A stretch of DNA of 40,887 bases from Cyclobacteriaceae bacterium (GTDB lineage Bacteria; Bacteroidota; Bacteroidia; Cytophagales; Cyclobacteriaceae), in contig JAHEGY010000034.1 of NCBI GenBank assembly GCA_024644875.1, positions 1-40,887 of the forward strand, in the 5' to 3' direction. Shown one piece after another: positions 5,939-36,499 of the stretch (positions are counted from its first letter, which is position 1; each line of letters opens with the position of its first letter). Position numbers and translations under genes: made by a program. The notes under the pieces were generated by a model. It had not been told where the DNA came from. It made no database searches and saw only the letters and a list, made by a program, of their open reading frames with translations.

Positions 5939-6331
5939 TTATTCCATTGGTTGCGTAGCTACCGATACCCTTGCTTTTAAGGAGGTGGCTATACTGGCAA
6001 CATTTATAAGGTGTTCTGTCGGGACAGATTTATCCACATGAAGTACTACGACACCTTCCTGACCTTTCAAGGCAGCAGCCAGATCATCGGGTAATCGCCG
6101 GATATTGGTCCGCTGGTCATCCACGAAATACCTGAGGTCTTTGGTAATGGTAACACTGACTTTCTGCATCACTATGGTGGAACTCTTACTTGAAGGGAGG
6201 TTCACCGGCAATCCGGAAGGTGTTACGAAAGATGCGGTAAGCATAAAGAAGATCAGCAACAGAAAAATAATATCTGTCATCGATGACATACTGAATGCTG
6301 CCTGTACCTTATGTTTAGTATTCAGGTCCAT
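5939..6331 (-). CDS. exbD: ExbD/TolR biopolymer transport protein
   Basis: A 130-residue protein with one N-terminal membrane helix and a periplasmic domain. The helix carries 'MTDIIFLLLIFFMLT' with Asp20, the proton-translocating aspartate of ExbD/TolR. The periplasmic part keeps the family's 'GVVLHVDKSVPTEHLINV' strand-helix unit. With ExbB it forms the proton-driven motor that powers the adjacent TonB-like protein. The gene lies 7 bases after exbB and 2 bases before the TonB gene. ExbD and TolR cannot be separated reliably by sequence, so the symbol is by convention. Confidence 0.92.
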   Translation of the reverse strand: MDLNTKHKVQAAFSMSSMTDIIFLLLIFFMLTASFVTPSGLPVNLPSSKSSTIVMQKVSVTITKDLRYFVDDQRTNIRRLPDDLAAALKGQEGVVVLHVDKSVPTEHLINVASIATSLKARVSVATQPME

Positions 6332-6338
6332 AATATCC

Positions 6339-7016
6339 TTATTGTGGTTCCTGCAACAGATCCATAAAATTAATGGAAGTATATTCCATCCTGTAAATTA
6401 ACTTCTGGACTCTTGTGACAAGGTAATTATATCCCAGATAAGCAATAATACCCACAAACAGGCCGGCTGCAGTGGTCAGCATGGCCTCATAAATGCCGGA
6501 TGACAACAACTTCGGGCTAACCGTACCTTCTTCCTGTGCGATCGCCATAAAGGCCCTGATCATACCGGTCACAGTGCCCAGAAATCCGATCATAGGGGCA
6601 GCGCCGGATATGGTTGCCAGAAGTGAAAGGTTTTTCTCAAGTTTGTAGATCTCAATTTTCCCCACGTTTTCGATGGAGGCTTCTATATTCTTTAACTCTC
6701 CCCCTAATCTTGAAACCCCTTTCTCAATCATTCTTGCTATGGGTGAACTACTTTGAGCGCAAACTATTTTCGCGGCATTGATATCCCCTTTTAATACGAG
6801 TCCTTTCACATTTTCAAAAAAGCCATCCCCTATCTGAGATGCTTTTTTGATGGTCAGCATGCGTTCAACAAAGATATACACAGCCAGAATCGACAAAAGA
6901 AAAATGGGGACCATCATAAATCCCCCTTTAACAAGCAATTCAATGATCCTCACCTGTTCCTGGCCACCCGTAGATAGTGTATCTAACTGAGTGGTCGTAA
7001 TTTGCAATAAGTCCAT
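6339..7016 (-). CDS. exbB: ExbB/TolQ/MotA proton-channel protein
   Basis: A 225-residue inner-membrane protein with three helices: about 31-50 ('GGFMMVPIFLLSILAV'), about 130-160 ('PMIGFLGTVTGMIRAF') and about 170-195 ('AMLTTAAGLFVGIIAYL'). The 'GFLGTVTGM' and 'LTTAAGL' stretches are the conserved MotA/TolQ/ExbB motifs. With ExbD it forms the proton channel. It starts one base after the SPOR-protein stop, so it is almost certainly co-translated with it. Such tight linkage to a septal peptidoglycan-binding type of protein is more suggestive of a Tol-like than a nutrient-uptake system, though this is inference. Confidence 0.93.
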   Translation of the reverse strand: MDLLQITTTQLDTLSTGGQEQVRIIELLVKGGFMMVPIFLLSILAVYIFVERMLTIKKASQIGDGFFENVKGLVLKGDINAAKIVCAQSSSPIARMIEKGVSRLGGELKNIEASIENVGKIEIYKLEKNLSLLATISGAAPMIGFLGTVTGMIRAFMAIAQEEGTVSPKLLSSGIYEAMLTTAAGLFVGIIAYLGYNYLVTRVQKLIYRMEYTSINFMDLLQEPQ

Positions 7017-7017
7017 A

Positions 7018-7782
7018 TTAATATTTCAAAACCCAGATTGACTCTCCAAATATTCCTTTCAGCTCTCCCAAATTAGCCTCTGCAGCCTGAAACGTACTAT
7101 ATTCATTACTAAGGACTACCCTGTGGAATCCTTTCCTGGCTTCAGCGGGAGGGATTATCTTCGTATCGACCCCTTCCAAGGCCATATTTTGCGCAAAGTC
7201 CTCGGCAAAATCTTTATCAAAAAAGCTGTTCAATACAATATAATAACGACCGGTCCTTGCATTAATTGCTTCATACGATCCCTCAGTAGTCGTTCCTCTG
7301 CTTTCATCCACGGCTTCAGGTATTTCTTCCACCTCCTCTGGTACTGCCGGTGTCGGATCCACAGGCAGCTCTTCTTCGTCCACAGGTATTTCTTCTACTT
7401 CTTCAACAACAGGGCGCTGAACGATCTGCTTTTCCACAGGTTCTCTGAAGAAAAACCAATAAATGGCTATTGCGATTACAATAACGCCTATTAATACAAA
7501 CGATATTATTAATCCAACCGGATTTCTTTTCCGGTCATCATCATGTGATGAATGATATTTATATACATGTGAATCGTCCAGTTCATCATCTGAAATATCA
7601 TCATTAAACATGTCAGAATCTGAATCTGCGGTTGATAAAGGCTCAGTCTCCTCCTCTTCCATATCCAGTCCGCTATCCGATGAGGCTTCAGGCAGGCCAA
7701 AATCATCAGATTCCTCCTGGCTACCTTCGGATGATCCTGATTTCAGTTCATCATCCTGGTTGTTAGGTTTTTTATCTTCCAT
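7018..7782 (-). CDS. SPOR-domain membrane protein
   Basis: A 254-residue bitopic protein. Residues 1-86 are cytoplasmic and very rich in Asp, Glu and Ser. A membrane helix spans about 88-112. A Pro/Glu/Val-rich periplasmic linker covers about 115-165, and a C-terminal SPOR domain covers about 178-254 (starts 'RYYIVLNSF', ends 'GESIWVLKY'). SPOR domains bind denuded glycan strands at division septa, so the product should sit at the inner membrane with its C-terminus on the peptidoglycan. It is the first gene of the operon that continues with exbB one base later. The 145-base gap upstream (7783-7927) probably holds the operon promoter. FtsN-like architecture, but no FtsN-specific motif is seen. 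Confidence 0.85.
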   Translation of the reverse strand: MEDKKPNNQDDELKSGSSEGSQEESDDFGLPEASSDSGLDMEEEETEPLSTADSDSDMFNDDISDDELDDSHVYKYHSSHDDDRKRNPVGLIISFVLIGVIVIAIAIYWFFFREPVEKQIVQRPVVEEVEEIPVDEEELPVDPTPAVPEEVEEIPEAVDESRGTTTEGSYEAINARTGRYYIVLNSFFDKDFAEDFAQNMALEGVDTKIIPPAEARKGFHRVVLSNEYSTFQAAEANLGELKGIFGESIWVLKY

Positions 7783-7927
7783 GTTACGTATTGATTAGGT
7801 GATAATATTAATTCAATTTAATAAAATGTTAACTTATCATAAAAGTATAACAAATATTTTTAAAGTTCTCTAAGAAAGTTATCAAATCTCAAAAATATAC
7901 AAAACCGGGATAATCGATATGTTTCAG

Positions 7928-9607
7928 TTAAAAATTAATAGAAACCCCTCCTATTATCTGTATTCCTCTTGATGGGTACCTATAATATCTTTCATAATTT
8001 CTTCCTAAAATATTATCAAATCTTAGAAAAGCACCAAGTCTGTCGGAGAATAAATACTGTACGCTCAGGTTCAAATCGAATATGGCTGACAGGGTAATGG
8101 TTTCCTCAATCGGACCTTCATATGACTTTGCTTTCATCCCACTGATATAATAAATATTGCTTCCAAAGACTATCTTATCATATAAATTATATCTGAATGT
8201 GCCTGTTAATTTAAATGTAGGCCTGTGCCATGCTTCTTCCAGTGTCTTTGTACCGTAGTTAAAGTAATCTGCACGAATGCCCATATTATAATTTTTGATC
8301 CTGGATAAAACCAGTTCACCGTAAATATTCATCACATTCGTGTTTTCCTCTTCATATACAAGCTGGAAGGTAGCGGGATTCAGTGAATCGTTCAGGAAAA
8401 AGTATAGATCCTTGTACTCTGACAGTTTGAACCCGGCGAGGAAGTTGAAATAATTATTCACATTTCCGCGCACACCCCAGTCTATACCGAATTTCTTATT
8501 ACTATGCCTGAGTCCGACACCTTGTCCGAGGAAGGGATTCTGACTAACAACTGATTCAAAATCAACCTGCTCCATATCGCCGTCGAGCTTCAGGAAGAAA
8601 CTATAGTAGTCATTCAGGTTATATGCTACATCAATAAATGGGTATAATAACACATTGTTACTTGATGAAGTGGTATCGTTCTGAATTACAAAATCAAGTC
8701 CGCCCGTCACGTCGAAATCGCCGAATTTATAAAATACAAATGGCTTTACACTGATCAGGTTTCTACTCAACGACTCCGGATTCTTATAAGAGGAAAACAT
8801 GGTATTTACATCCAGGTGGAATCTCAATCCTTCTTTCAGGAAATAATTACTTAGGAAATTTACCTCGGTTCTGGATTCACTGCTGCTGAAGGTTTTATCC
8901 TTTATATAATTGTAATTTGCTTCTACAATATAGTCGAAATCATCTTTCTTATTCGTATTTCCGAACCAGAGCCCGAGATTGAAATTATTATAGACCTGTT
9001 TTATAGAATCAGCATCTATCTCAAGGCCTTCCGGATAACCATAAAAATGAACCATTCTGCGGTCGTAGTTCAGTTTAGCACCGACTGTCAGCTTTTGACC
9101 ATAATACCTGGTATCTAAAGCTGCTCCAGTTTCTGATGATCCGGAGTTTTGCTTATCTATGGGGCCATTCCGGGATGAAATATGATTCAGATTCACCCCG
9201 AGGGCATATTTGTTTTCCCGCTTATTGAACAAACTAGCATCCAGATACGGAGTCAGGTAATTCCCGAATCCAGCGGTTAAGTTTCCACCATAAAATTTTT
9301 CCAATGGCTGGGATTTCAGCTTTAACGCCCTGTTCGGGATGCTCAGATTTGACAATTCAGGAATTATGCTTAAATAATTATAGTTTTGCCTGACTTGCGA
9401 TGTTGGATTGGAAGGTAAAGGTGGAATTTTCTCAAACTCCCTTTTTTGCTGAGGCAATTCAATCTCCAGGTTCTTTTCCACGACAAAGCTTGCATCCTCA
9501 ATTTCACCCTCATCAATTTTTTCCCAATTTTCATCCTGGGCATATAATACTGATGTAGTGAAACCTATTAAAAGAAAAATGAACAATATGTATTTAAAGT
9601 GCTTCAT
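7928..9607 (-). CDS. Outer-membrane beta-barrel protein (TonB-receptor-like barrel)
   Basis: A 559-residue exported protein. The signal peptide spans about 1-23 with cleavage after 'LYA'. A short periplasmic segment (about 24-110, acidic, then 'PPLPSNPTSQ') leads into a barrel made of repeated amphipathic strands with many Tyr, Asn and Phe residues. The end is 'LRFDNILGRNYERYYRYP...GVSINF', as in TonB-dependent receptors and related barrels, with a terminal Phe typical of BAM substrates. No plug domain or TonB box is evident, so it is not a complete TonB-dependent receptor. It lies 17 bases downstream of the TPR gene and is probably co-transcribed with it. The TPR protein may be its periplasmic partner; that is inference. 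Confidence 0.75.
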   Translation of the reverse strand: MKHFKYILFIFLLIGFTTSVLYAQDENWEKIDEGEIEDASFVVEKNLEIELPQQKREFEKIPPLPSNPTSQVRQNYNYLSIIPELSNLSIPNRALKLKSQPLEKFYGGNLTAGFGNYLTPYLDASLFNKRENKYALGVNLNHISSRNGPIDKQNSGSSETGAALDTRYYGQKLTVGAKLNYDRRMVHFYGYPEGLEIDADSIKQVYNNFNLGLWFGNTNKKDDFDYIVEANYNYIKDKTFSSSESRTEVNFLSNYFLKEGLRFHLDVNTMFSSYKNPESLSRNLISVKPFVFYKFGDFDVTGGLDFVIQNDTTSSSNNVLLYPFIDVAYNLNDYYSFFLKLDGDMEQVDFESVVSQNPFLGQGVGLRHSNKKFGIDWGVRGNVNNYFNFLAGFKLSEYKDLYFFLNDSLNPATFQLVYEEENTNVMNIYGELVLSRIKNYNMGIRADYFNYGTKTLEEAWHRPTFKLTGTFRYNLYDKIVFGSNIYYISGMKAKSYEGPIEETITLSAIFDLNLSVQYLFSDRLGAFLRFDNILGRNYERYYRYPSRGIQIIGGVSINF

Positions 9608-9624
9608 TCACTCTTTTTATATAC

Positions 9625-12600
9625 TTATTCCTGAAGTGTATCCACTTCAATAATCTCACTTTCGGTAATACTTTCAATTTCCAACAATTTTTCTTCAGCC
9701 GTAGCTACAATTTCCTCAATCGGTGATTTCTCAATAACCGAGTTAAGTGTTGCTTTAGCCTGGAAAACCTCGTCCATGGAAATATAATTGTCAGCGATCA
9801 GTAAAAAAGATTTACCGATCCACTCTTCATAGATCCCGTAATTCTCATTCAAATCGAATAATGCTTCATTAGAACTTTGATATTGCCCCTGATCCCTGAA
9901 GATGGTAGCAATAAGAAACTGTGCTTCAGCACCGTTTACATCTTTTGCGGTATTCACGGTGGACAAGAAATAGTCCACGGCTTCTTCAATATCACCTTTG
10001 GCTAAATACGCCTTCCCGGCGAACAGCTGGGTCAGGTTTTGGGTATTTACTGAAAATGTTCCGATTCCTAAAATACGTTCGGCATAATAAATTGTAGAAT
10101 CGTATTTGCCAGTTAAATAGTAGGCTTTCATAAGCCCTTCCCATGCATCATATTCCTCCCTTTTATTGGAAGCTATGTTTTCAAGCCGTGCATAATATTC
10201 TAATGATTCCTGGTTATTGCCCATCAGTTCGTTGATCAGGGCCAGCCTTCTAACAGACCGGTTCCTCCACTTGGTATTTGGTATTTTTACCACCGATTCA
10301 TAGGCTTTAATTGCATTTTCATATTCCTTCGCCCTGTAATAACTTTCCCCCAGGTAATAATATACTTCATCCTCGAAAGAATTTTGACCATAATCCCTCA
10401 GGTACTGATTGAAGGCTGCAATCGCTTCATTATAGCTCTGGCTAAAATACAGGTTTTTAGCGGCATCAAATTCAATGTTCGACAGGTCCTGCCCATCCGG
10501 GTTCAGAAGTTTGTATTTTGCAAGATAATCCGAGAATTCTGCTGAACGGTCTGCATTGGTTAGCACTTCCTGCAATCCCATAAGAGCATTGTTTGCCGCT
10601 TCATGACGGGGATAATTATCGATAATAGATTTATAATCGTTTATGCTGTTATCCGTTTGCTGAAGGTTGCTGTAAGAGATGGCCCGGTTAATTAATGCAT
10701 AGGGCACAAATGAACTCTCCGGTTGCTCAGAGATCAAAAAGGAAAATTCCTGGATGGCCCGGTTGTAATCACCATTTTCAAAGGACAGTTCCGCACGCTG
10801 ATAAAGGGCATCATCGTAGTATACGGAATTCTTTGCCAGTGTAACCTGGCTCAGGTATCTGTTTGCTTCTGATTGGTTCCCTGTTATGCCATTGATCAAT
10901 CCGATCTGGTAATTACAGTAATCCTCTTCAGGACTGCCTGCCTGTATGGCCAATTTATAGATTGAGATAGCCGTATTGTATTCTTTAGTAGCATAATAAC
11001 AGTCCGCCAATCTTAACAGGGCATCTCTGTAAAAGAATTGATTTGAATTGGAACGCAACCTGTCGGTATAGAATCTGAAATGCGACAAGGCCTTATTATA
11101 ACTTTTCAGGTTATAATAGGCATATCCCAGACCATATCTCGCTTTCAGTGTGGTTTCCGAGGTATTGGAGGGATCCTTACTTAATACCATTTCATATGCT
11201 CTCCTGGCTTCCTCCAGACGTTTTCCAATAGCATAGGCTTCTCCAATCCAGAAATAAGATTGAAGGGTTGTTTCCTTATCATATGGGTATTCCAGGGATA
11301 GATTAAAAGTTTGAACAGCGTTATAATATCTTCCTGCATTAAACAATGAAGTTGCCTTCCGAAAAGTTACCAGCTGGTACAGTCGCCTGACCTTGTCCGT
11401 TTTTACCGGCAAGGATTCTATATATTCCAGGGCGGCATTTACATCATCTGTAAGCAGGTAGGATTCACTGATCAGTGCGTCTACTTCTTCCCTGTTTATA
11501 GAAGCATGTTCGGACTGATTATACTTGGTTAGTGCAGGTATCGCCGCGGAATACCTGCCTTCCTCAAAATTCAGTTTACCCAGGTAAAACAGCGATTCAT
11601 ATTGAATTGAGGCATCGAATTCCTGTTTAGATGCGTTTTCAAAAGCGGTGATGGCAAATGGTTTATTATCGAGCCTAAGATAAGACAGCCCCAGATAGTA
11701 GGATGCATATTGACCTGTGGCTTCTTTGTCTAGTGCGGCCTTTTTTAGATGTTCAACAGCTTCAGCAAACAATCCACTTTCATAGGCTGTAAAGCCGGCT
11801 TTATATAATATCTGAGTGGTCGATTTACCTCCTTTTCGTTCAAGGCTGCTTTCAAAGTACCGGTTGGCATTCCGGTAATCCTCCTTAAAATAGTAAGCAT
11901 CGGCAAGCATGATCTCCATGTCCCCAACATTTTTTACCTGCCTGCCTTCCATAAAAACTGATTGTGCATATGAGATTACCTTATCATAATCCTTTAAACC
12001 ATAATAGATCCTGGTGATCATAGGTGGGACTACATTTTTGTAGGTATCCTTTTCTTCGGCAATCTTCAGGTATGTCAATGCATCCTCATAATTCTCATTA
12101 TTTATTTCAATAAATCCGGCATAATAGGCAGAGGCTGCCTGAAATTCGTTTTCTGCCTGCAGGCTATATTTAAAATTTGCCAGAGCATCATCAAATTTTT
12201 TCAGGTTGAAATAGCTGTACCCCAGTTTAAATTTTAGTTCAAATCTTTGTTCGGGTGAAAGGTTGTAAGCCTTTACCTTTTCAAAGGCAGATATGGTTTC
12301 CTTGAATTTATTATTCCTGTAATAATAGTTTCCGAGTTCAAAGTATGCCATCATTGACTTCGAATTTGAGGGATACTCCTCCACAAAATTCTCAAATAGA
12401 TATTCTGCATCATCATTGAATAGCATCATGGCACAATAGGCCTGATAATATTTGGCCTCCGCCATCATTTCTGAACTAGGTTCAGTTTTTATATACTGTT
12501 CAAAGCTGCTTCTTGCAGCAGCATAATTATTGCTCTCGAGAAGTTTAATTCCCTTATTAAATATGTTGAGAGAACTGTTCCTATCGATCGTATTCTGCCC

Positions 12601-12657
12601 GAGAAGAGGGAGATATAGCATGACCAGCAGAAAAAGGAAGGCAAACCTCTTTAACAT
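9625..12657 (-). CDS. Large exported TPR-repeat protein (CpoB/YbgF-like organisation)
   Basis: About 1010 residues from the chosen ATG at 12657, whose product starts with a classical signal peptide (MLKRFAFLFLL... ending 'PLLGQ'). A start 14 codons further up would spoil that signal. The rest is nearly all tetratricopeptide-type helical repeats of about 34 residues, with recurring patterns such as 'AKYYQAYCAMML', 'ALYQRAELSFENGDYNRAI' and 'VYYYLGESYYRAKEYENAI'. The repeats resemble those of BamD, CpoB/YbgF and other envelope scaffolds. It is predicted to be periplasmic or surface-bound and to act as a protein scaffold. It sits between holA and the barrel gene, upstream of the ExbB-ExbD-TonB operon. 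The exact partner is unknown. Confidence 0.82.
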   Translation of the reverse strand: MLKRFAFLFLLVMLYLPLLGQNTIDRNSSLNIFNKGIKLLESNNYAAARSSFEQYIKTEPSSEMMAEAKYYQAYCAMMLFNDDAEYLFENFVEEYPSNSKSMMAYFELGNYYYRNNKFKETISAFEKVKAYNLSPEQRFELKFKLGYSYFNLKKFDDALANFKYSLQAENEFQAASAYYAGFIEINNENYEDALTYLKIAEEKDTYKNVVPPMITRIYYGLKDYDKVISYAQSVFMEGRQVKNVGDMEIMLADAYYFKEDYRNANRYFESSLERKGGKSTTQILYKAGFTAYESGLFAEAVEHLKKAALDKEATGQYASYYLGLSYLRLDNKPFAITAFENASKQEFDASIQYESLFYLGKLNFEEGRYSAAIPALTKYNQSEHASINREEVDALISESYLLTDDVNAALEYIESLPVKTDKVRRLYQLVTFRKATSLFNAGRYYNAVQTFNLSLEYPYDKETTLQSYFWIGEAYAIGKRLEEARRAYEMVLSKDPSNTSETTLKARYGLGYAYYNLKSYNKALSHFRFYTDRLRSNSNQFFYRDALLRLADCYYATKEYNTAISIYKLAIQAGSPEEDYCNYQIGLINGITGNQSEANRYLSQVTLAKNSVYYDDALYQRAELSFENGDYNRAIQEFSFLISEQPESSFVPYALINRAISYSNLQQTDNSINDYKSIIDNYPRHEAANNALMGLQEVLTNADRSAEFSDYLAKYKLLNPDGQDLSNIEFDAAKNLYFSQSYNEAIAAFNQYLRDYGQNSFEDEVYYYLGESYYRAKEYENAIKAYESVVKIPNTKWRNRSVRRLALINELMGNNQESLEYYARLENIASNKREEYDAWEGLMKAYYLTGKYDSTIYYAERILGIGTFSVNTQNLTQLFAGKAYLAKGDIEEAVDYFLSTVNTAKDVNGAEAQFLIATIFRDQGQYQSSNEALFDLNENYGIYEEWIGKSFLLIADNYISMDEVFQAKATLNSVIEKSPIEEIVATAEEKLLEIESITESEIIEVDTLQE

Positions 12658-12759
12658 GTAATTAAATAACCGTCTATATGCACCTTTAACGAAAATCAAT
12701 AGTTTTTATTTGAAATCCTGTAAGAATCCTTATAGCTAAAATCGAACCAAAAAGTAATT

Positions 12760-13782
12760 TCAATGTAAAAGTTTGTATACCAGCTCCTTTAAGATCTCAC
12801 CTTCTTTTATGCTCCCAACCCCAACACCTTTACTTCTGAGATCTGCTTCACGAATATAATGAATATTTTGGATTACTTTACCCATTGGATAATTATGGCT
12901 CGCATGAATATATTCATTGATAAAATAGGGGTTGACTCCTGTTAACTGGGCCAGTTTATTCCGGTTCTTATCCGGTGACTGATGAATAATCAGAAGTTTA
13001 GAAAACAGATTAAAAATTAAAGCAATTACCGGTATGATCGGATTAGTCCGGGTATTGGCGCTGAAATAATTAACGATCCGGTTTGCTTTGATGATGTCTC
13101 TAACTGCTATGGCACGCTGCAGTTCAAAAGCATTATAATCTTTACTTATGCCCACATATTTCTGAACAATACCAGGGGTGATGAGGGTTTTCTCACTATA
13201 GTTGATCAGGATCTTGTTTATCTCATTGGATAGTCTCTCGAGGTCATTCCCAATATAATCCACAAGAATCTGAGCTGCATTTAAATCTATATCATGACCT
13301 TTACCGGAGATGTATTGCAGAACCCAGTCAGGGATCTGGCTATCATAGAGTTTCTTTGACTCAACAACTATGGCATGCTGTTGAAGGTTTTTAAAGAAAG
13401 TTTTCCTTTTATCCAGACTTTTATTCTTATAGGCAAAAACAAGGATAGTGGAAGGCAATGGATTTTGGAAATAGTTCATTAATACTTCCTGTCCTGCCTG
13501 AAGATTAAAATCCTGAATATCCTGAGCTTCTTTGATGATTACCACCTGTCTGTCAGACATCATGGGGAACCTTTTAGCATTATTGATTATATCCTGTATT
13601 GTAACATCCTTTCCATACAATATGATCTGGTTAAATCCTTTTTGTGCCTCCGGAAGTGCATTTTCCTCAATGAATTCTGTGATCTCATCAATATAAAACA
13701 CCTCTGTCCCCGAAAGAAAATATATGGGTGCGTATTCATTTTCTTTAAGACGTTTTAGAATATCTTCCGGTTTATAGACCAT
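12760..13782 (-). CDS. holA: DNA polymerase III delta subunit
   Basis: A 340-residue cytoplasmic protein, usual length for HolA. It opens 'PEDILKRLKENEYAPIYFLSG', the N-terminal delta-subunit signature, followed by a Rossmann-like AAA+ module without a working Walker A, including 'RQVVIIKEAQDIQDF' and 'LVFAYKNKSLDKRKTF'. The middle has 'YIGNDLERLSNEINKI' and the C-terminal collar helices include 'FELQRAIAVRDIIKANRIV'. It loads the beta sliding clamp as part of the clamp loader. It is followed after about 100 bases by the TPR gene on the same strand. In Bacteroidota holA is often annotated next to unrelated envelope genes, so no functional link is implied. Confidence 0.93.
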   Translation of the reverse strand: MVYKPEDILKRLKENEYAPIYFLSGTEVFYIDEITEFIEENALPEAQKGFNQIILYGKDVTIQDIINNAKRFPMMSDRQVVIIKEAQDIQDFNLQAGQEVLMNYFQNPLPSTILVFAYKNKSLDKRKTFFKNLQQHAIVVESKKLYDSQIPDWVLQYISGKGHDIDLNAAQILVDYIGNDLERLSNEINKILINYSEKTLITPGIVQKYVGISKDYNAFELQRAIAVRDIIKANRIVNYFSANTRTNPIIPVIALIFNLFSKLLIIHQSPDKNRNKLAQLTGVNPYFINEYIHASHNYPMGKVIQNIHYIREADLRSKGVGVGSIKEGEILKELVYKLLH

Positions 13783-13888
13783 AATTATATGTTAATGGAA
13801 ATTCAGATGAAGAATTCGCACAGGTTAAGCAATATTAAATTGCTTGATATAATTTTCCCAATGATAAAGCAATTAAATAGAACAACGT

Positions 13889-14863
13889 TTACCTTTTCCA
13901 GGATGTCTGATTACTAGTTTTATCAAAGTGGGAAGATTCTACTGAAAGATTAATACGCCTCAGGGGATCTAATTCCTCAACCACGAAAAAACCATCATTT
14001 CCCGATCGCTGGTAGAGTGGCATAAATATCATCCCGTCCATTGGGATCTGTATTGGTCCATTCCTGTCATGGGCAATCACTTCTCCGGTTTTCACTTTCT
14101 GAAAATTCAAATAGCCAGGTTTCATGCGGAAATTATCTTCCTCTGTGATCCAGTAGTGATGGCGGACCCTCAACTTGTGTGGCAATTCAGCGGCAAAGGT
14201 CTGAAGCAGTGTCCCGATCTGCATTATACCATTTACATGATCCGGTGATACTGCTCCGGAAGCGAGTAGTATTTCCCATATTCCTGCCGTATGAAGCTCT
14301 ACTGCAACTTCACTTCCGATCAAACCTCCTTCAAAAGCAAATGCCAGGTAGCCTTTTTGGGTAAGGTATTTCAACAAAGTTCCTTTAATATGTTTCTCCA
14401 GATCCAGGATTAGTGGCAGTTTTAGTGCATTGATCACCGGATCGTCTGATGTGATCTCAGGGACGACAATAAAATTACCATTATCCGATGAGGTAGTATG
14501 GAGGTCGACACAGACCTTTTTCGTGGATTCAATAGATGATAATTCCTCAAAAATCCTATTCAGTTCCAGGACTTCATCATCTTCAGCGAAAATATGGTGT
14601 GATTCGGCTAAATGTTGAATATGCTCATCTGTCCAGCACCGGTTCAGATCATAGTCTATGAATCGTTCTTTCTTTTCAATGGCCTTTCTGTTCCCCTCCA
14701 GGCCAACAATTTTACCAGAAATCTCAAGATTATCCTCGTTTATCTTATTAAAGACCCTTTCAATGGCTTTAATACCCGTTAGTTCATTACCATGTAATCC
14801 ACCTATCAGGATAATTAATGGTCCTTTCTTCGTGCCTCCTAGCTCCCCAATTATCCTGCTCAT
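13889..14863 (-). CDS. Succinylglutamate desuccinylase / aspartoacylase-family amidase
   Basis: A 324-residue zinc-dependent amidohydrolase of the AstE/AspA family (peptidase M14-like fold). 'GGLHGNELTG' at 21-30 supplies the zinc ligands H24 and E27. 'DLNR' (72-75) is the substrate-binding arginine motif. 'VDLHTTSS' provides the third zinc ligand H122. A later 'FEGGLIGSE' stretch should hold the catalytic Glu. The family hydrolyses N-acyl amino acids such as N-acetylaspartate or N-succinylglutamate. It lies 6 bases downstream of a GCS2-type ligase with CBS domains, so the two are one operon, probably making and breaking the same amide bond. The true substrate is unknown; no arginine-succinyltransferase genes are nearby, which argues against classic AstE. 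Confidence 0.82.
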   Translation of the reverse strand: MSRIIGELGGTKKGPLIILIGGLHGNELTGIKAIERVFNKINEDNLEISGKIVGLEGNRKAIEKKERFIDYDLNRCWTDEHIQHLAESHHIFAEDDEVLELNRIFEELSSIESTKKVCVDLHTTSSDNGNFIVVPEITSDDPVINALKLPLILDLEKHIKGTLLKYLTQKGYLAFAFEGGLIGSEVAVELHTAGIWEILLASGAVSPDHVNGIMQIGTLLQTFAAELPHKLRVRHHYWITEEDNFRMKPGYLNFQKVKTGEVIAHDRNGPIQIPMDGMIFMPLYQRSGNDGFFVVEELDPLRRINLSVESSHFDKTSNQTSWKR

Positions 14864-14869
14864 ATTCTC

Positions 14870-16795
14870 TTACAGTGCTTGATCTTTATTGATTAATATA
14901 TTTAATAGTGTCGCAGAGATCCTTCTGAAATTATGTTCCGTGATCACTCCCACCAGCTTTTCATTTTTAATGACCGGCAGGCATCCTATTTTTTTGGATT
15001 TCATTATTTCCATAGCCTTTTTAATACTGGCATCAGGCCCTATAGATATCGGGTCCGTTACCATAATATCCTTTACAATACTAGCCTTACTGTTTCCTTT
15101 TTCCTTATTCCTGAAATGCCTCAACATAAGGCCTGAAGAAACCAGGCCCGTAAGTTTCCCTCTTCCATCCTCCACCAGCACGTATCTCAACTTCTGCCAG
15201 TCCATCATATCAGCCACCAGCTCAACAATATCATCCTGATGCACAGTAAACAGGTCAGTATCCATGAATTCTTCGACGATCAGATGTGTCGGCTTCCAAT
15301 CCCCAATATCGTCAATTCCAGCCAGGTCCCATGTATGGACAGGTCTTTCTTCTTTCTGGTTACGGACCATTGCGGAGGTTATTGCAATGGAGATTTCTTC
15401 ACGGTTCGCCTCCTTTGATAGTTTGGAAAAAGAATTCAGGATCCAGGTTGATCCATTTTGTCGTGACTCATTCCGTTCTTCTATTACCGATAAATATCTA
15501 TCAATATCTTTTTTATCGATATTTTGATCTTTCAGGCCTTGTTTAGCCAGTGGCAGTAATTCCTTTTTAATCAGCTCTGCTACCGATATTTTTAAATCAT
15601 TAATCCAGGAAAGCTCCGTTTCCATACCCTCCCTGGCAGCAGCAAAGAAATTGGATTTAGCATCATCGAAATCCATCAATTTGGTTATGTCTTTATACTC
15701 CCTTCCAAATCCAACCATAAGGCCCAGCCAGAAAGCTGCATTGGCTACTTCATCAACAACTGTCGGACCGGAAGGTAAAGCCCGGTTCTCTATTCTAAGA
15801 TGAGGCTTACCATCATCTCCGATTCCATAACAAGGCCTGTTCCATCTATAAACTGTAGAATTATGTATGGTAAGGGCTCTTAACTTGGGAATCTCCCCTT
15901 TGTCGAGGGATACCATTGCATCATCTTCCTGCCCGGTCATCAGCATGATCCGGAAACGCATGATGTCTTCCTTATACAGGTTTAATATTGAATTCTCCAG
16001 CCATTTGGTCCCGAAGATCACACGGGGACTACGGTCACGCAGATGCTCGCCGGTAACTCTTGTATCGATTGATTGCTGAAAGAGAGCAACCCTTGTTTCC
16101 CGCCAGAGTCTTTTTCCGAACAACATTGGGGAGTTGGAAGCCAGGGCCAATACAGGGGCTGTCAATACCTGGGCATTGTTGTATTGTTCGACAAAATCAC
16201 CCGGATTAACCTGCAAGTGGACCTGAAAACTCGTATTGCAAGCTTCAAGCATTGCAGAGTCATGTTTTATGAGCAGTTCATCGATTCCTCTTACCCTAAG
16301 CTCATATACTTTACCTCTTAAGCGATTCAGTGCAGTAATAAGAACATTATACCGTTTTAGAGGTGTCAGGTTATCAAGGCCCAGATCGAATTTCCTTATA
16401 GTTGGCAGAATTCCTGTTACAGCATAATCAACACCTATCCGGGCCGCTTCGTTTCCAAGTTCCTTAAGCAAATGAAGAATTTCGGATTCCAGTTTTGAAA
16501 AACAATTTTTTTCAAAAAAGTGTGGTGTCAGGTTGGCCTCAATATTGAATTTTGCCAGTTCTGTAGTGAAGAAATCCTTATTCAGGTTATCGAGGATCTC
16601 CATTACCTGAGGCGCCGGTTTATAATGCTCATCGATCAGACAGATTTCCTGTTCGGCACCGATCTTTACCTTACTTTCCTCAAAATATCCCTCATTCAGC
16701 ATCCGGTCGAGCGCCTTAACGTCCTGAAGCAATAACCTGGTAAATTCATTCAGGTCTTTTTGCTTTACTACAGATTTTACATTTATTTCGCCCAT
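14870..16795 (-). CDS. GCS2-family glutamate-amine ligase fused to two CBS domains
   Basis: A 641-residue cytoplasmic protein. Residues about 15-440 are a glutamine-synthetase-fold ligase of the GCS2/YbdK type, starting with 'GAEQEICLID' (46-55, the Mg/ATP acidic motif) and containing 'HDSAMLEACNTSFQVHLQV' and 'RIENRALPSGPTVVDEVAN'. Residues about 504-565 and 573-625 are two CBS modules ('VTDPISIGPDASIKKAM', 'IGCLPVIKNEKLVGVITE') that normally bind adenine nucleotides. The family joins glutamate to an amine or amino acid with ATP. The CBS pair suggests control by cellular energy state or by SAM-like ligands. It starts the operon with the aspartoacylase-like gene 6 bases downstream. The substrate is not shown by the sequence; glutathione synthesis proper is unlikely because no gshB is present here. 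Confidence 0.8.
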   Translation of the reverse strand: MGEINVKSVVKQKDLNEFTRLLLQDVKALDRMLNEGYFEESKVKIGAEQEICLIDEHYKPAPQVMEILDNLNKDFFTTELAKFNIEANLTPHFFEKNCFSKLESEILHLLKELGNEAARIGVDYAVTGILPTIRKFDLGLDNLTPLKRYNVLITALNRLRGKVYELRVRGIDELLIKHDSAMLEACNTSFQVHLQVNPGDFVEQYNNAQVLTAPVLALASNSPMLFGKRLWRETRVALFQQSIDTRVTGEHLRDRSPRVIFGTKWLENSILNLYKEDIMRFRIMLMTGQEDDAMVSLDKGEIPKLRALTIHNSTVYRWNRPCYGIGDDGKPHLRIENRALPSGPTVVDEVANAAFWLGLMVGFGREYKDITKLMDFDDAKSNFFAAAREGMETELSWINDLKISVAELIKKELLPLAKQGLKDQNIDKKDIDRYLSVIEERNESRQNGSTWILNSFSKLSKEANREEISIAITSAMVRNQKEERPVHTWDLAGIDDIGDWKPTHLIVEEFMDTDLFTVHQDDIVELVADMMDWQKLRYVLVEDGRGKLTGLVSSGLMLRHFRNKEKGNSKASIVKDIMVTDPISIGPDASIKKAMEIMKSKKIGCLPVIKNEKLVGVITEHNFRRISATLLNILINKDQAL

Positions 16796-16966
16796 AACCC
16801 AGTAGTTAGATTCGAGTAAGCATGGTTTTTGCTGATAAATACTTAAAAACAGACATCAATATTAGTGATTTTAATAGAGAAATTCACGTTGATGGCACTT
16901 ATGCTTACTAAATTTAACTATTTAATTCATAATTTAATAACTTAGGAATTAGCCGAAAGAAAAGAT
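16796..16966. promoter_or_regulatory. Divergent promoter region
   Basis: 171 bases between the GCS2-CBS operon (minus) and the MORN-repeat gene (plus). AT-rich, with no hairpin or repeat of note. Promoters for both directions must lie here; no box could be assigned confidently. Confidence 0.4.
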
Positions 16967-18577
16967 TTGAGAAAATTGAGATCATCACTGCTAATTATCT
17001 TTCTTAGTCTCTATGCTATAGGACTTTATTCACAGGAAGAACAGACCCTTTATTTTAAAGATAGTACCATGGTGGGCAAGGGCCTGGTAATTAATCAAAA
17101 AAAAGAAGGGAAATGGGTAATTTATAATAAAAACACTAAACTGACTGAAATTGGAAATTTTACCAATAACCAAAGGGATGGTTTATGGGAACTATATACC
17201 CCCAGCGAGGTCAAACTTCTTGAGCTCGAGTACGAGAATGGCCATGTTAATGGAACATATAAACAGTATTATTCTGACGGGAGCCTATATATTTCCGGGT
17301 TCATAGAGTCTGACAGTATAAAGACCGGAAGGTGGGAGGAAAGATACAACAATGGTGCTTTGAAAAGTGAGGGATACTATGAGAATAACTTAAAGAATGG
17401 TTCCTGGAATTACTACAAGGATACTTCTCTACCCTTTATAGAGTCGGAATATGTTAATGATACATTGAACGGGCCTTACAAGGAATATGATATTTTTGGT
17501 GATCCGACTTCCGAGGGTGAATATAAAAATGGAAAACGGCATGGACAATGGAAAGAATACAATGCTTTCGGGTATGTAAGCAAATCCTCTGAATACCTCG
17601 ATGGTGAACTGAATGGCGCTGTCACAGAATTCTACGAAAATGGCCAGCGAAAATCTGAGAAACAATACCTGCAAGGCCTTCCACAAAAAAAGTGGGTATA
17701 TTTTTATCCAAATAGCAGGAAAAAAAATGAGATGACGTTCGAGGACGGATTCCGGAATGGAGAGTACCTGGAATATCATGATAACGGGAAGCTTAGTGTA
17801 ATCGGTAAATACGTTCTGGATAAAAAGGTTGGCATATGGTATAATTATTATAATACGGGGATTCTGTTTGCTACCGGGCCTTATCTTGATGACAAGAAAG
17901 AGGGCTTATGGAAATATTTCAACGAATATGGTTTTCTCATTTCTGAAGGAAATTTCGAGAATGGATTGGAATCCGGCCAGTGGTTCTTTTATCATGACAA
18001 TGACAGTATTGAATCGATTGGCACCTATGTAGAGGGTAAGGAAAACGGTTTATGGGGAATATTCTGGGAGGATGGCACACAGAAGCAGGAAGAATTCTGG
18101 AAAAATGGCCGTCTGCTGATTGTTACAGACGTGTATTTTAAAGACGATACGCTGACAGCAGGCAAACTCATTAATGGAAACGGAACCCGGATAGACTATT
18201 ACCCCAACAAGGTCATTCAGGAAAAGGTGGATTATGTGGGTGGCAAAATGAACGGGAACTGGGAGTATTATGATGAAGAGGGGAATATATCTTTCCGGGG
18301 GCAGCTGATTGACAATGTCCGGCATGGAGAATGGACTTTTTACCATCCAAATGGTGAAATTGAATCCAAAGGCCGCTATAAAAACGGTGAAATGGATGGG
18401 AAATGGCAGTTTTTCAATAAAAGAGGAAAACTTAAAGAGACGATAGATTATACCATTGAAGAAGAAGAGGACCTGGAAACTGATGATGAGGAAGAGGCTG
18501 AAGACAATGAAGAAGAAAGCAGCCTGGAAGACGATTCTGAAGGCAGTACCCCCAAGGAGGACAATGAAGGCAATTAA
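16967..18577 (+). CDS. Exported MORN/YwqK-repeat protein with acidic tail
   Basis: 536 residues. The start is TTG at 16967, chosen because an in-frame TAG lies at 16963-16965 upstream side (16963 region) and the product then begins with a clean signal peptide, MRKLRSSLLIIF ending 'GLYSQ'. The body is about 17 tandem units of roughly 23 residues with the pattern G-x-W-x-x-Y-x-x-x-G-x-L-x-x-x-G, for example 'RHGQWKEYNAFG', 'KEGLWKYFNEYG' and 'RHGEWTFYHPNGEIESKG'. These are MORN repeats as in YwqK-type proteins. The last 40 residues (about 496-536) are almost all Glu, Asp and Ser. A surface or periplasmic binding role is likely; YwqK 'antitoxin' labels in databases are not supported by anything here. 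Single gene, divergent from the CBS-ligase operon. Confidence 0.8.
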   Translation: MRKLRSSLLIIFLSLYAIGLYSQEEQTLYFKDSTMVGKGLVINQKKEGKWVIYNKNTKLTEIGNFTNNQRDGLWELYTPSEVKLLELEYENGHVNGTYKQYYSDGSLYISGFIESDSIKTGRWEERYNNGALKSEGYYENNLKNGSWNYYKDTSLPFIESEYVNDTLNGPYKEYDIFGDPTSEGEYKNGKRHGQWKEYNAFGYVSKSSEYLDGELNGAVTEFYENGQRKSEKQYLQGLPQKKWVYFYPNSRKKNEMTFEDGFRNGEYLEYHDNGKLSVIGKYVLDKKVGIWYNYYNTGILFATGPYLDDKKEGLWKYFNEYGFLISEGNFENGLESGQWFFYHDNDSIESIGTYVEGKENGLWGIFWEDGTQKQEEFWKNGRLLIVTDVYFKDDTLTAGKLINGNGTRIDYYPNKVIQEKVDYVGGKMNGNWEYYDEEGNISFRGQLIDNVRHGEWTFYHPNGEIESKGRYKNGEMDGKWQFFNKRGKLKETIDYTIEEEEDLETDDEEEAEDNEEESSLEDDSEGSTPKEDNEGN

Positions 18578-18729
18578 CTGGAACCTCAAACCGAATAATT
18601 CATTTGTTGAGGAGCATCCAGATGTTTTTTGACGACGATTCAGTCGTTCTTTAAATCAACTTACGCATGGAAATTCCCCATTCTGTATATTTTTTTTGAT
18701 AATAGGAGTTTAAAATCAAATAATGCATC

Positions 18730-32411: not shown

Positions 32412-34574
32412 TTATCTGATAAACAGAAGTTCTCTGTATTTTACGAGTGGCCAATCATCATTATCAACATAAAGTTCAAGCTTATCAACATGATATCGGA
32501 TGCGCTCAAAATACTTCTCTTTTACGTTATCGCAATATTCAATGGCTCTGTCATAGGTGTCTTCAATTTTATTGATCCTTCTTCTTTCATCGATCATTTC
32601 ATTGACCCCAACCTTGATTCCTTCAATATGCTTGGAGATCTCCGTAATTGTTTTAATGACTGCTGCGCTGTCAATACCAATTCCTTTGAGACCGTTAGCA
32701 TTTTCTATCAGTTTATTCTGGTACGAAACAGAGGTTGGAACAATATGATTTAATGCAAGGTCACCCATAACCCTTGATTCGATCTGAATCTTCATTATAT
32801 AGTTTTCCAGCATTGTTTCATTTCTGGCTTCCAGTTCCCTTTCATTCAAGATACCATTTTTCACGAAAACATCTTTGTTTTTCTTATCGAGATAGGATTT
32901 TAATGAACGTGGTGTATTCGTGATATTCGATAGTCCTCTTTTCTCAGCTTCCTTTATCCAGGCCTCAGAGTAATTGTCTCCTTCAAACCGTATCTTTTTT
33001 GAAGATTTTACATAATCCTTGAGAACACTGATTATAGCCAGCCTCTTTTCAGAACCTTTAGCAATCCTGGCATCCACATCTTTTTTAAACTGCTTGAGCT
33101 GCTCAGCTACAATCAGGTTCAATACAGTCATCGGAGCTGCCACATTGGCTTCCCCACCTACTGCCCTGAATTCAAATTTGTTACCAGTAAAAGCAAATGG
33201 TGATGTCCGGTTACGATCGGTATTATCCAATATTATTTCAGGGATTTTTTCGATACCGAATTTCATATACATATTATCACCTTTCTTAATCTTAATGTTG
33301 CCACTATGGTCCAGTTCATCGAGAACAGTAGAAAGTTGTGAACCAATAAACACAGACATGATGGCTGGTGGTGCTTCATTGGCCCCCAGTCGATAATCGT
33401 TTCCTGCAGATGCAACACTGGCTCTAAGTAAGTCAGAATATTCGTAAACCGCCTTTATGGTATTTACAAAGAACACGAGGAATTGGAGGTTTTCCCTTGC
33501 GCTGCTACTTGGCTGGAACAGGTTCACACCTGTATTTGTGATCAGTGACCAGTTATTATGTTTACCAGTACCATTCAGGCCGGCAAATGGCTTCTCATGG
33601 AACAACACCCTCAGGCTATGCCTTTCAGCTACCTTCTGCATTGTATCCATCATAAGCTGATTATGATCAGCAGCGACATTCAATTCTTCGAATAATGGTG
33701 CTACTTCAAATTGACCCGGAGCAACTTCATTATGACGCGTACTAACCGGAATTCCAAGTTTATGGCATTCGATCTCAAAGTCTCTCATAAAATTATAAAT
33801 ACGGGGAGCAATAGAACCGAAATAATGATCATCCAATTGCTGGCCTCGTGCAGGGTTATGACCGAAGACAGTTCTGCCACCCATTACCAGGTCAGGTCTT
33901 GCGTAATATAAGGCCTTATCGATTACAAAATATTCCTGTTCACATCCCAGGCTGGCATTCACTTTGGAAACGTCCCTGTCAAAATATTTACATACGGCAG
34001 TTGCTGCTTTATCAACCAGTTCCAATGCCTTTAATAAAGGTGTTTTATTGTCAAGCGCTTCACCCGTATAAGAAATAAATACAGTAGGTATACATAATGT
34101 ATTGCCCCAGATAAAAATTGGTGAACTGGGATCCCAGGCCGTATAACCCCTGGCTTCAAAAGTACTTCTTATACCGCCACTGGGAAAGGAAGAAGCATCA
34201 GGCTCTTGCTGAACCAGGGCACTACCCTTGAACTTCTCAATTTTTTCGCTACCATCAAAGAAAGTATCATGTTTCTCGGCGGTAGCACCGGTGAGTGGTT
34301 GGAACCAGTGTGTGTAATGGGTGATCCCTTTTGTCATTGCCCATGTTTTCACAGCCGCGGCAACTGCATCAGCAGTTTCGGTATCTATCTTTTTCCCTTT
34401 GTCAATATAATAGTTGACTTTCTTATATACATCAGGAGATAAAGTTTCCTTCATCCGCTCCAGCCCGAATGCATTCACTCCAAAATAATCAGATATTTTA
34501 TTCGATGGAGCTACGACCTCCGGGAAAACGCGATTACCCGCTTGCTCCAGAGATTTAAATCGAATTTGTGCCAT
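32412..34574 (-). CDS. glnN: Glutamine synthetase, type III
   Basis: 720 residues, the length of GSIII (about 730), not the 450 of type I. It opens 'MAQIRFKSLEQAGNRVFPE'. The GSIII body has 'FPSGGIRSTFEARGYTAWDP', 'GCEQEYFVID' (metal-binding Glu), 'GFEVAPLFEE'-like 'GQFEVAPLFEELNVAADHNQ', 'LNGTGKHNNWSL' and 'DRNRTSPFAFTGNKFEFRAVG'. The enzyme makes glutamine from glutamate, ammonium and ATP and forms cytoplasmic dodecamers. It follows amt, a porin gene and a small exported-protein gene on the same strand, which is a coherent ammonium-assimilation cluster. A 197-base gap with TATATTTG boxes suggests its own promoter. Tandem terminators follow. Confidence 0.96.
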   Translation of the reverse strand: MAQIRFKSLEQAGNRVFPEVVAPSNKISDYFGVNAFGLERMKETLSPDVYKKVNYYIDKGKKIDTETADAVAAAVKTWAMTKGITHYTHWFQPLTGATAEKHDTFFDGSEKIEKFKGSALVQQEPDASSFPSGGIRSTFEARGYTAWDPSSPIFIWGNTLCIPTVFISYTGEALDNKTPLLKALELVDKAATAVCKYFDRDVSKVNASLGCEQEYFVIDKALYYARPDLVMGGRTVFGHNPARGQQLDDHYFGSIAPRIYNFMRDFEIECHKLGIPVSTRHNEVAPGQFEVAPLFEELNVAADHNQLMMDTMQKVAERHSLRVLFHEKPFAGLNGTGKHNNWSLITNTGVNLFQPSSSARENLQFLVFFVNTIKAVYEYSDLLRASVASAGNDYRLGANEAPPAIMSVFIGSQLSTVLDELDHSGNIKIKKGDNMYMKFGIEKIPEIILDNTDRNRTSPFAFTGNKFEFRAVGGEANVAAPMTVLNLIVAEQLKQFKKDVDARIAKGSEKRLAIISVLKDYVKSSKKIRFEGDNYSEAWIKEAEKRGLSNITNTPRSLKSYLDKKNKDVFVKNGILNERELEARNETMLENYIMKIQIESRVMGDLALNHIVPTSVSYQNKLIENANGLKGIGIDSAAVIKTITEISKHIEGIKVGVNEMIDERRRINKIEDTYDRAIEYCDNVKEKYFERIRYHVDKLELYVDNDDWPLVKYRELLFIR

Positions 34575-34712
34575 AGTTTATTTAGTAATCTTAGTTATAA
34601 AATAATTAATTTATTCTTTATTTTGTTGCCAAATATTCAATATTTTCAACATTTTACCGTCATTATTATAAAATAATAGCTGATTTTTGAGATGCTCTAT
34701 CAAATTGCTGGA

Positions 34713-34740
34713 CAAATATATACCTTTTTACACAAATATA
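34713..34740 (-). promoter_or_regulatory. Putative glnN promoter boxes
   Basis: On the minus strand TATATTTG occurs at 34740-34733 and again at 34720-34713, both matching the Bacteroidota -7 box TAnnTTTG. They are exactly 20 bases apart and about 140-165 bases upstream of glnN. No clear -33 box is at the expected distance, so this is a motif match only. Confidence 0.35.
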
Positions 34741-34771
34741 AATTTTTTGACATTTTTTTTATGCACTATTT

Positions 34772-35350
34772 TTAATTATTACGTATTTCTGCCATTTTTG
34801 CCTCTAAATCTGCCGTTAATTTTTCAATTTTGCTGTTAATTGTCTCATAATGAGTTATCCACGTTTTTTTCTTATTATCGGGATAATATTTTTCCAGAGG
34901 GTATTTTTTTGAGCTTTTAGGAACGAACAAACCAAAGCGGTTCCTTTCATATTTTATGAATTTAAAGTTGTTGATCGTGTATTCATATTTTGAGTCATTC
35001 ACAGTGATTTTAATGTCGGCCATCATCACACCATCCACCTGTTTGGTAAGTGCAGGTTTTACTATGAGATAAAAACCCAACTGATGGGACATTGTTGTCA
35101 AGCTCTCATTGACCTGCACATCTTTCGTAAGTTGATCCGGAACCGAAAGGGTATTCAGGTATTTCATTGCATTGTCCCAGAGCGTCAGGGAAGTTCTTGA
35201 ATCGATATCGACCGACCTGGTGTATTCCACCATACCCTCATCGCTTACCGGCAATGCAATAGACTGACCGGCGCCATAATGCGAAAATGACATAATCAGG
35301 AATATAAGGAAAGGCCTTGAGAAGGCCTTTCCTTTTCCTGATGTAGCCAT
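34772..35350 (-). CDS. Small exported protein of unknown function, DUF4468-like
   Basis: 192 residues from the ATG at 35350 (4 bases after the porin stop). A signal peptide is likely: 'MATSGKGKAFSRPFLIFLIM' then 'SFSHYGAGQ'. The mature part has alternating strands and helices ('SLTLWDNAMKYLNTL', 'YEYTINNFKFIKYER') and ends in a Lys/Glu-rich helix ('KIEKLTADLEAKMAEI'). The 'KYEYTINNFKF' and 'YPLEKYYP' segments resemble DUF4468 proteins; the match is tentative. It is co-transcribed with the porin and amt. Codons 3-19 are embedded in a 48-base inverted repeat, which should hamper its translation. Confidence 0.6.
   Translation of the reverse strand: MATSGKGKAFSRPFLIFLIMSFSHYGAGQSIALPVSDEGMVEYTRSVDIDSRTSLTLWDNAMKYLNTLSVPDQLTKDVQVNESLTTMSHQLGFYLIVKPALTKQVDGVMMADIKITVNDSKYEYTINNFKFIKYERNRFGLFVPKSSKKYPLEKYYPDNKKKTWITHYETINSKIEKLTADLEAKMAEIRNN
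35295..35342. repeat. 48-base inverted repeat over the start of the small exported-protein gene
   Basis: Arms of 8 and 13 bp stack into a 21-bp stem with a 3-base bulge and a 3-base loop. Outer arms are ATCAGGAA/TTCCTGAT, inner arms AAGGAAAGGCCTT/AAGGCCTTTCCTT. It lies 8 bases inside the coding region of the downstream gene and just after the porin stop at 35355. In mRNA it would form a very stable hairpin that can protect the porin message 3' end and block or pause translation of the next gene. Confidence 0.75.
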
Positions 35351-35354
35351 ACAT

Positions 35355-36392: not shown

Positions 36393-36449
36393 TTTTATTC
36401 TATTTTGAGTTCGTTAAATATTTAGTTTTTTTATTGAACCGGTATTGGC

Positions 36450-36480
36450 CCGGGCAAGGTATCGTAAAATACTAACCCGG
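36450..36480. other. Hairpin between amt and porin gene
   Basis: Arms CCGGG/CCCGG with an inner GTAT/ATAC pair around CGTAAA. It lies 20 bases after the amt stop, and no U-run follows on the minus strand, so it is more likely an mRNA processing or stability element than a terminator. Confidence 0.35.
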
Positions 36481-36499
36481 ATCAGCACCTGTTTAATTT

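Follow-up and report, generated by a model that had tools for sequence, protein, structure and literature searches.

A GCS2-CBS ligase gene and an AstE/AspA-type amidase gene as a candidate operon for an amino-acid conjugate in a Cyclobacteriaceae bacterium

The DNA analyzed in this study, referred to as the window, comprises an entire contig (JAHEGY010000034.1; 40,887 bases) of the 5.06-Mb draft genome of a Cyclobacteriaceae bacterium. It contains two adjoining genes in the same direction (Table 1). The first one in the reading direction encodes a ligase that combines a GCS2-fold domain with a pair of CBS domains and the second one encodes an AstE/AspA-type amidase. An earlier sequence-only reading had placed the ligase 6 bases from the amidase on one strand, which is exact to the base. 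The genome holds a single copy of each gene, except that the CBS part also gave two weak matches. Among named genomes, its closest relatives are Cytophagales drafts, including those of Roseivirga, Bernardetia and Cyclobacteriaceae.

The ligase matched the GCS2 family (PF04107) with a modest 30.9 bits against a cut-off of 21, with no single stretch passing 0.001 alone, and matched the CBS family (PF00571) with 77.1 bits in two stretches. When a profile of the catalytic domain was compared with PDB sequences, no GCS2 structure was found and the one weak match was unrelated. The fold of the ligase was assessed on an AlphaFold2 model, which was built with 10 sequences, is of middling confidence (mean pLDDT, the predicted local distance difference test score, of 63.9) and was compared with known structures by VIA-align. 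The model matched YbdK (1r8g and 1tt4) with a Z of 23.6 and a root-mean-square deviation (rmsd) of 3.5–3.7 over 311–319 residues (3.7 and 319 for 1r8g) and the plant glutamate-cysteine ligase 2gwc with a Z of 19.3 and an rmsd of 3.8 over 337 residues. These matches all fell within residues 20–481. On this middling-confidence model, a GS-type (GCS2) fold is supported for the ligase, and the Pfam matches and the modelled fold bear out the GCS2-fold ligase with two CBS domains that had been recognized before. The GhExE motif of the ligase is GAEQE, of which G46, E48 and E50 were invariant in all 18 aligned ligases. In PMC2588565, this motif is described as part of the Mg/ATP site in the superfamily to which the ligase belongs.

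Ligase residues 501–636 were most similar to AcuB-type CBS pairs (2o16 and 9s51), with Z of 19.1–19.6 and identities of 27–29%. The AcuB structures, with which the CBS pair of the ligase shares its fold, contain AMP, ADP and ATP. Thus, control of the ligase by adenine nucleotides via its CBS pair is plausible by analogy. However, the CBS pairs that bind S-adenosylmethionine (3kpc, Z of 18.3) or cyclic di-AMP (6yja, Z of 17.1) scored lower by no more than roughly 1 to 3 Z, so that the resemblance does not predict the ligand.

Relatives of the ligase without CBS domains were also found in Actinomycetota and a haloarchaeon. Ligase relatives L175, L177 and L178 (genomes, loci and families are numbered with G, L and f, respectively) come from replicons of Streptomyces, of Tsukamurella and of Natrinema, a haloarchaeon. 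No neighbor annotated as AstE/AspA was found for them in the gene tables, which are incomplete, and an "amidohydrolase" gene is two genes upstream of the ligase relative of L177. In addition, a contig from a viral collection (L141/L181; IMGVR_UViG_3300020045_012307) carries at its right end a ligase relative with 33% identity over residues 17–336. It is cut by the contig end and has no Pfam match of its own, and the genes of the contig are phage-tail-like by eye. This relative is possibly an auxiliary metabolic gene or a misassembly. The search of viral contigs found this one GCS2 relative and no AspA relative, and phage records queried with a green sulfur bacterial ligase gave no match.

The amidase matched AstE_AspA_cat (PF24827) with 67.7 bits against a cut-off of 25. 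Its AlphaFold2 model (3 sequences, pLDDT of 68.3) is predicted to share the fold of Escherichia coli AstE (1yw6) over the whole length, with a Z of 16.6 and an rmsd of 4.0 over 261 residues (model residues 1–299). The lower-scoring matches were other AstE, DoeB, aspartoacylase and CphZ structures. Residues H24, E27, R67, N74, R75, H122 and E178 were invariant in all 15 amidases compared, one of which was from a green sulfur bacterium. They include an HxxE...H site and a glutamate (H24, E27, H122 and E178), which we take to be the zinc site and the catalytic residue. Moreover, the HGNE and RxxDxDLNR stretches align with human ASPA, whose residues H21, E24, R63, N70 and R71 (numbers counted off the alignment) are conserved in the amidase. 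The substrates of AstE/AspA enzymes are small N-acyl amino acids, from which they release the free amino acid. The amidase scored far under the cut-offs for both the AstE equivalog TIGR03242 (49.6 bits; cut-off 305.65) and aspartoacylase NF002601 (70.4 bits; cut-off 180), and its substrate is thus not assignable from the family. Different from AstE with its arginine-catabolic context, the window amidase has other genes as its Pfam-checked neighbors. A relative of the amidase was also found on its own: the 0.6-Mb replicon of Bernardetia sp. Wsw4-3y2 (L179; NZ_CP147018.1) has AspA with no ligase among the annotated neighbors.

The co-occurrence of the two genes was assessed in two sets of sampled genomes, 296 from the phylum and 60 from the bacterium's own family. 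AspA matches weaker than 1e-20 were removed, which lowered the number of amidase genomes in the phylum sample from 68 to 64 (G109, G147, G195 and G199 removed) and also removed G342 from those of the family sample. The ligase was found in 88 and a strong amidase match in 64 of the 296 genomes: 62 had both, 26 the ligase only, 2 the amidase only and 206 neither (Fisher 4e-40, uncorrected for kinship). In the family sample, the amidase was found in 25 of 27 ligase carriers and in 3 of the 33 other genomes (Fisher 2e-11, kinship ignored). Both Fisher values overstate the strength of the association, since sampling was uneven and each genome was counted singly even when it had relatives in the set.

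The genes are also close to each other. Irrespective of strand, the distance between them was no more than 1.5 kb in 57 of the 62 phylum genomes with both, and the remaining five, all from family f8, had them unlinked. In the family sample, the genes adjoined in 22 of the 25 genomes with both, as judged by eye. Thus, the conservation of the pair as neighbors, which the sequence-only reading had made a test of its proposal, was observed at both levels. Among the nine best family loci, one was cut by a contig end and AspA was behind the ligase in six of the other eight. For 91 ligase genes whose neighbors were read, the amidase was directly behind the ligase on the same strand in 50, and the gap was −14 to 11 bases in 34 of these 50, where the overlaps vary with the start codon chosen. 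The sets for neighbors, gaps and the ligase tree exclude L058, L075, L093 and L096 (open reading frame caller) as well as L085 (split ligase, length filter). Seven further carriers (L134–L140) are outside the trees, and the amidase tree is without the G178 amidase and later family members. On the tree of the 91 ligases, the label "followed by AspA" requires at least seven changes. The distances of the two proteins co-varied in the 50 pairs (Mantel r of 0.81), which may reflect common inheritance alone and was not used as evidence for interaction.

The genes around the pair differed between groups. For instance, many loci of family f23 have PriA upstream and ScpB downstream, the gene for RNase P protein adjoins the ligase gene in five loci of family f7, and holA adjoins the pair in the window, as it does in some relatives when judged by eye. 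As the flanks differ between groups while the pair persists, it is the pair that is kept and not its surroundings. The neighborhood of ligase and amidase is more than chance. Conserved neighbors were also considered as metabolic hints and were rejected, for they were housekeeping or variable genes (PriA, ScpB, RNase P protein, aconitase, GH32 and Sua5 by Pfam). Other neighbors, judged by eye, were a pseudouridine synthase and a hydrolase.

The bacteriochlorophyll a protein (PF02327) was present in all 10 tested of the 16 carriers of family f17, which was thus taken as green sulfur bacteria. In this family, the amidase was found in 15 of 16 ligase carriers, always within 1.5 kb of the ligase. 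None of the 11 green sulfur bacterial ligases read carried CBS, so the CBS domains are dispensable for the pairing.

In six loci (L071, L074, L076, L078, L079 and L080), tandem ligase paralogues precede one amidase. The first of the two ligase copies of L079 (G171) is incomplete. The tandem-ligase loci carry a long form of the amidase of 383–407 amino acid residues. Six loci of the same family that have a single ligase carry amidases that cluster with those of the tandem-ligase loci in the amidase tree, as if one ligase had been lost and the amidase kept.

Several observations weigh against a shared function of the two genes. For 26 of the 88 ligase carriers, no strong AspA match was found (three of them had a weak one), so that the ligase can work alone, and the five f8 genomes have both genes apart. 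Moreover, the ligases nearest to that of the window have no intact AspA adjoining them (L015, L182 and L183). L015 (G306), a Cyclobacteriaceae draft whose ligase is 73% identical over part of its length, has only an apparent amidase remnant between ligase and holA, and the AspA search of its genome gave no match. By eye, a short stretch there (L015:937-1220) is similar to the first residues of the amidase and to its MPLYQ...GFF end, so that both gene ends seem to remain, possibly as a result of an error in the draft assembly. L182 and L183 have no amidase beside the ligase, and their genomes (G317 and G315) have amidases elsewhere. In G310, which is of the same genus as the bacterium studied, the ligase is in two pieces and no AspA match was found; this genome is 87% complete. 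Conversely, the amidase of G351 and G363 precedes holA, like that of the window, but does not adjoin a ligase; these genomes have a ligase of the other type on another contig. Finally, the green sulfur bacterial amidase is very divergent in the amidase tree, and its pairing with the ligase may be an independent recruitment. If so, the functional link would be strengthened. The ligase and amidase genes are dissociable, yet they are rarely absent from each other's genomes in the family.

The few genomes with AspA and no GCS2 ligase revealed a second context for the amidase. In both such genomes of the phylum sample (G053 and G273), the amidase adjoins MATCAP (QEGLA) and a glutathione-synthetase-like ATP-grasp gene. 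The three genes are co-directional in G053 and the amidase is convergent in G273. Two of the three AspA-only genomes of the family sample (G336 and G350) have the same arrangement with a convergent amidase, and the contig of the third (G311) starts at the gene, which leaves its neighbors unreadable. Thus, AspA was beside a GshB-like gene in four of five AspA-only genomes (L127, L128, L211 and L212; the fifth, L213, is cut by the contig). G336 and G350 were read after G053 and G273 had raised the expectation, which was not recorded beforehand. Among the 17 MATCAP loci read, 12 had FGase (an N-formylglutamate-amidohydrolase-like gene), four had AspA, none had both and one (L164) had neither (Fisher 0.002). 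These loci came from 15 of the 16 phylum genomes with MATCAP (G234 left out) together with L211 and L212. FGase was found by similarity to one protein, by which a divergent FGase could be missed. Labels based on Pfam were FGase of L143, MATCAP and ATP-grasp of L127 and L128, and MATCAP of the phylum survey; the others were based on similarity. Because AspA is found where FGase usually sits and, in the loci read, never together with it, AspA appears to replace FGase. Amide ligases with two unrelated folds thus have this amidase as a companion.

The genome of the bacterium studied has, besides the pair, an FGase-MATCAP-GshB-like row on another contig (G000 C151; L143:1814-5610). This row, a second predicted amide-ligase system, is flanked by genes that by eye resemble those for MgtE magnesium transporters. 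MATCAP/GshB was also tried as an obligate genome-wide partner and was rejected, as MATCAP was found in 16 of 296 genomes, of which 9 had GCS2 and 10 had AspA.

A RimK-like ATP-grasp ligase had been suggested as a conserved third partner of the pair. This suggestion was not supported: at the loci read, none of the recurrent neighbor clusters checked by Pfam (clusters 3 and 5 by eye) was RimK-like. RimK/GshB-like ATP-grasp matches were found in 48 of 88 ligase carriers and in 39 of the 208 other genomes, and by eye none of the listed matches of the carriers was beside the ligase.

The identities of the genes, their modelled folds and intact motifs, the linkage in changing contexts, the co-occurrence and the exchange of the adjoining ligase point to a joint role of the two proteins. 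At about even odds, the two genes are a small operon that makes and unmakes one kind of amide, an amino-acid conjugate of gamma-glutamyl or N-acyl type. From what is known of its family, the ligase would activate a carboxylate, usually the gamma-carboxylate of glutamate, with ATP and join it to an amine. The AstE/AspA-type zinc amidohydrolase would cut that conjugate, or a close relative of it, back into its parts. The CBS pair, by analogy to AcuB, could let adenine nucleotides tune the ligase, such that the level of the conjugate would follow the energy state. We infer that one conjugate serves both enzymes, that it is glutamyl in nature, in which direction each reaction runs and that nucleotides control the ligase. 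A gamma-glutamyl dipeptide would be a natural first guess, since gamma-glutamyl amino acids are similar to succinylglutamate, on which AstE acts.

More tentatively, the pair may belong to a modular system of ligation and release, in which one AspA amidase family serves both GCS2-CBS ligases and GshB-like ATP-grasp ligases with MATCAP, replacing an FGase-like deacylase in the latter. The conjugates built and taken apart by such a system would be of a single class, either glutamyl or N-acyl amino-acid conjugates, and the system would be gated by nucleotides via CBS in most Bacteroidota carriers and CBS-less in green sulfur bacteria.

The strongest alternative, which has perhaps a little more than one chance in five, is that the two enzymes act in series: AspA would take the acyl group off an N-acyl amino acid, leaving a free amine as the acceptor for the ligase, with no cycle of making and breaking. 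Enzymes of the AstE/AspA family do free amino acids from N-acyl forms, and the 26 carriers without strong AspA look as if AspA merely supplies a substrate. Against this are the loci in which AspA pairs with MATCAP and an ATP-grasp ligase in place of an FGase-like gene; they suggest a general logic of ligase plus deacylase, which cannot tell a cycle from a series.

A role of the ligase as plain glutamate-cysteine ligase, making gamma-glutamylcysteine as a thiol or for glutathione, is improbable. It shares its fold with plant 2gwc, and CBS-less relatives with about 35% identity are annotated as "glutamate-cysteine ligase family protein". In addition, a divergent GshB-like gene was found in eight carriers, including the genome of the bacterium studied. 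However, a GshB-like match better than 1e-30 was missing in 80 of 88 carriers when searched with one divergent GshB-like query, and the next best match in a carrier was 1.2e-16. A pathway of GshA and GshB was thus rejected as unlikely in most carriers, where the second enzyme was unrecognized, in agreement with the sequence-only reading, which a plain glutamate-cysteine ligase would have refuted. Moreover, the amidase has no known role in the glutathione pathway. According to PMC6282198, in which in-frame gene deletion in Chlorobaculum tepidum is also described, glutathione is absent from this species and from the further green sulfur bacteria that were tested, and their main thiol is N-methyl-bacillithiol. 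These thiol data leave room for gamma-glutamylcysteine as a minor product.

It is still less probable that the ligase modifies the end of a protein or peptide, as does PafA of the same fold, and that AspA removes the tag. Enzymes of the AstE/AspA family act on small N-acyl amino acids, and no conserved tag-like open reading frame was found beside the pair among those of at least 80 amino acid residues. Such tagging would fit with the name of MATCAP, the alternative neighbor of AspA, which is named after a tubulin carboxypeptidase, as well as with the fold and GhExE motif that PafA and GCS2 have in common (PMC2588565) and with the addition of glutamates to a ribosomal protein by RimK and their removal by the protease RimB (PMC12239564). 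Equally improbable is an adjacency that reflects an inherited operon position with no common substrate: the neighbors are often housekeeping genes (PriA, ScpB, holA and RNase P protein) and some near relatives separate or lose one gene, but the pair persists while its flanks change, f8 retains both genes though unlinked, and the "followed by AspA" label changes at least seven times on the ligase tree.

If the two genes do make and unmake a conjugate, 62 of the 296 sampled genomes (about one fifth), including those of 15 of 16 green sulfur bacterial carriers, make an amino-acid conjugate for which no description was found. The exchange of the adjoining ligase narrows the search for the chemistry common to the systems. 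In addition, the annotation "glutamate-cysteine ligase family protein" should not be taken as glutathione synthesis.

Table 1. Positions of the ligase-amidase pair and adjoining features in the window.
Feature	Positions	Strand	Basis
Ligase gene, whole, first of the pair, 641 aa	14870..16795	-	Open reading frame call
GCS2-fold carboxylate-amine ligase domain, residues 1-490, GAEQE at residues 46-50	15326..16795	-	Pfam, alignment, model
CBS domain pair, about residues 505-632, ligase C-terminus	14900..15283	-	Pfam, structure comparison
Intergenic gap, 6 bases	14864..14869	-	Open reading frame coordinates
AstE/AspA-type amidohydrolase gene, 324 aa	13889..14863	-	Pfam, alignment, model
Spacer, 171 bases, from ligase gene to divergent MORN-repeat gene	16796..16966	.	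Coordinates
holA (DNA polymerase III delta), downstream housekeeping neighbor, not counted in the system	12760..13782	-	Family match

In the window, a divergent MORN-repeat gene is upstream of the pair, and holA, a large TPR gene and others are downstream. The promoter of the pair is presumably in the spacer before the ligase gene, in which a scan for sigma-70-type promoters found no match. An Rfam scan of positions 12500-18600 also gave no match. The MORN-repeat gene (16967-18577) encodes a MORN_2-repeat protein of 536 amino acid residues with a strongly acidic tail. Behind holA, genes in one direction (5939-12699) encode ExbD, an ExbB/MotA-like protein, a SPOR-domain protein, a protein of 559 amino acid residues with no Pfam match and a TPR protein of 1024 amino acid residues. 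By eye, L214 has a similar order (holA-like, 1036 and 558 amino acid residues). The same window also contains a nitrogen-assimilation cluster (32412-37852), whose genes, all in one direction, encode a type III glutamine synthetase, a DUF4468 protein, a BBP2 porin and an ammonium transporter.

The 2009 survey of amidoligases by Iyer and co-workers may list this pair. Searches of an open literature library gave no title or abstract naming the combination of ligase and amidase, and it is unnamed in the accessible parts of PMC2588565, PMC4431377, PMC12239564 and PMC4000134. The amidoligase neighborhoods of Iyer, Aravind and co-workers are likewise comparative-genomic predictions of uncharacterized systems around GS-fold ligases; those in the accessible part of PMC2588565, however, concern different GCS2-like families, whose partners are glutamine-amidotransferase-like proteins or cyclotransferases, and not this pair. 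YbdK and other GCS2 ligases (PF04107; 1r8g and 1tt4) and 2gwc share their fold and the GhExE motif with the window ligase, which differs from them by an identity of only 10–15% in the structural alignment, an extra CBS pair and an amidase neighbor in many genomes. Similar to the pair, the FGase-MATCAP(QEGLA)-GshB-like cassette combines an amide ligase with a member of an N-acyl-amino-acid amidohydrolase family, which is AspA instead of FGase in four loci. Different from the pair, its ligase is of the ATP-grasp and not the GCS2 fold, and the cassette adds the MATCAP peptidase. RimK and RimB, as described in PMC12239564, are a glutamate ligase and an opposing hydrolase, as proposed for the pair, so that such coupling is a known kind of arrangement. 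They are, however, an ATP-grasp ligase and an aspartic (retropepsin-like) protease that act on a ribosomal protein, and neither of these families is represented in the window pair. We rate the amidase common to two ligase folds as the newest aspect of the system.

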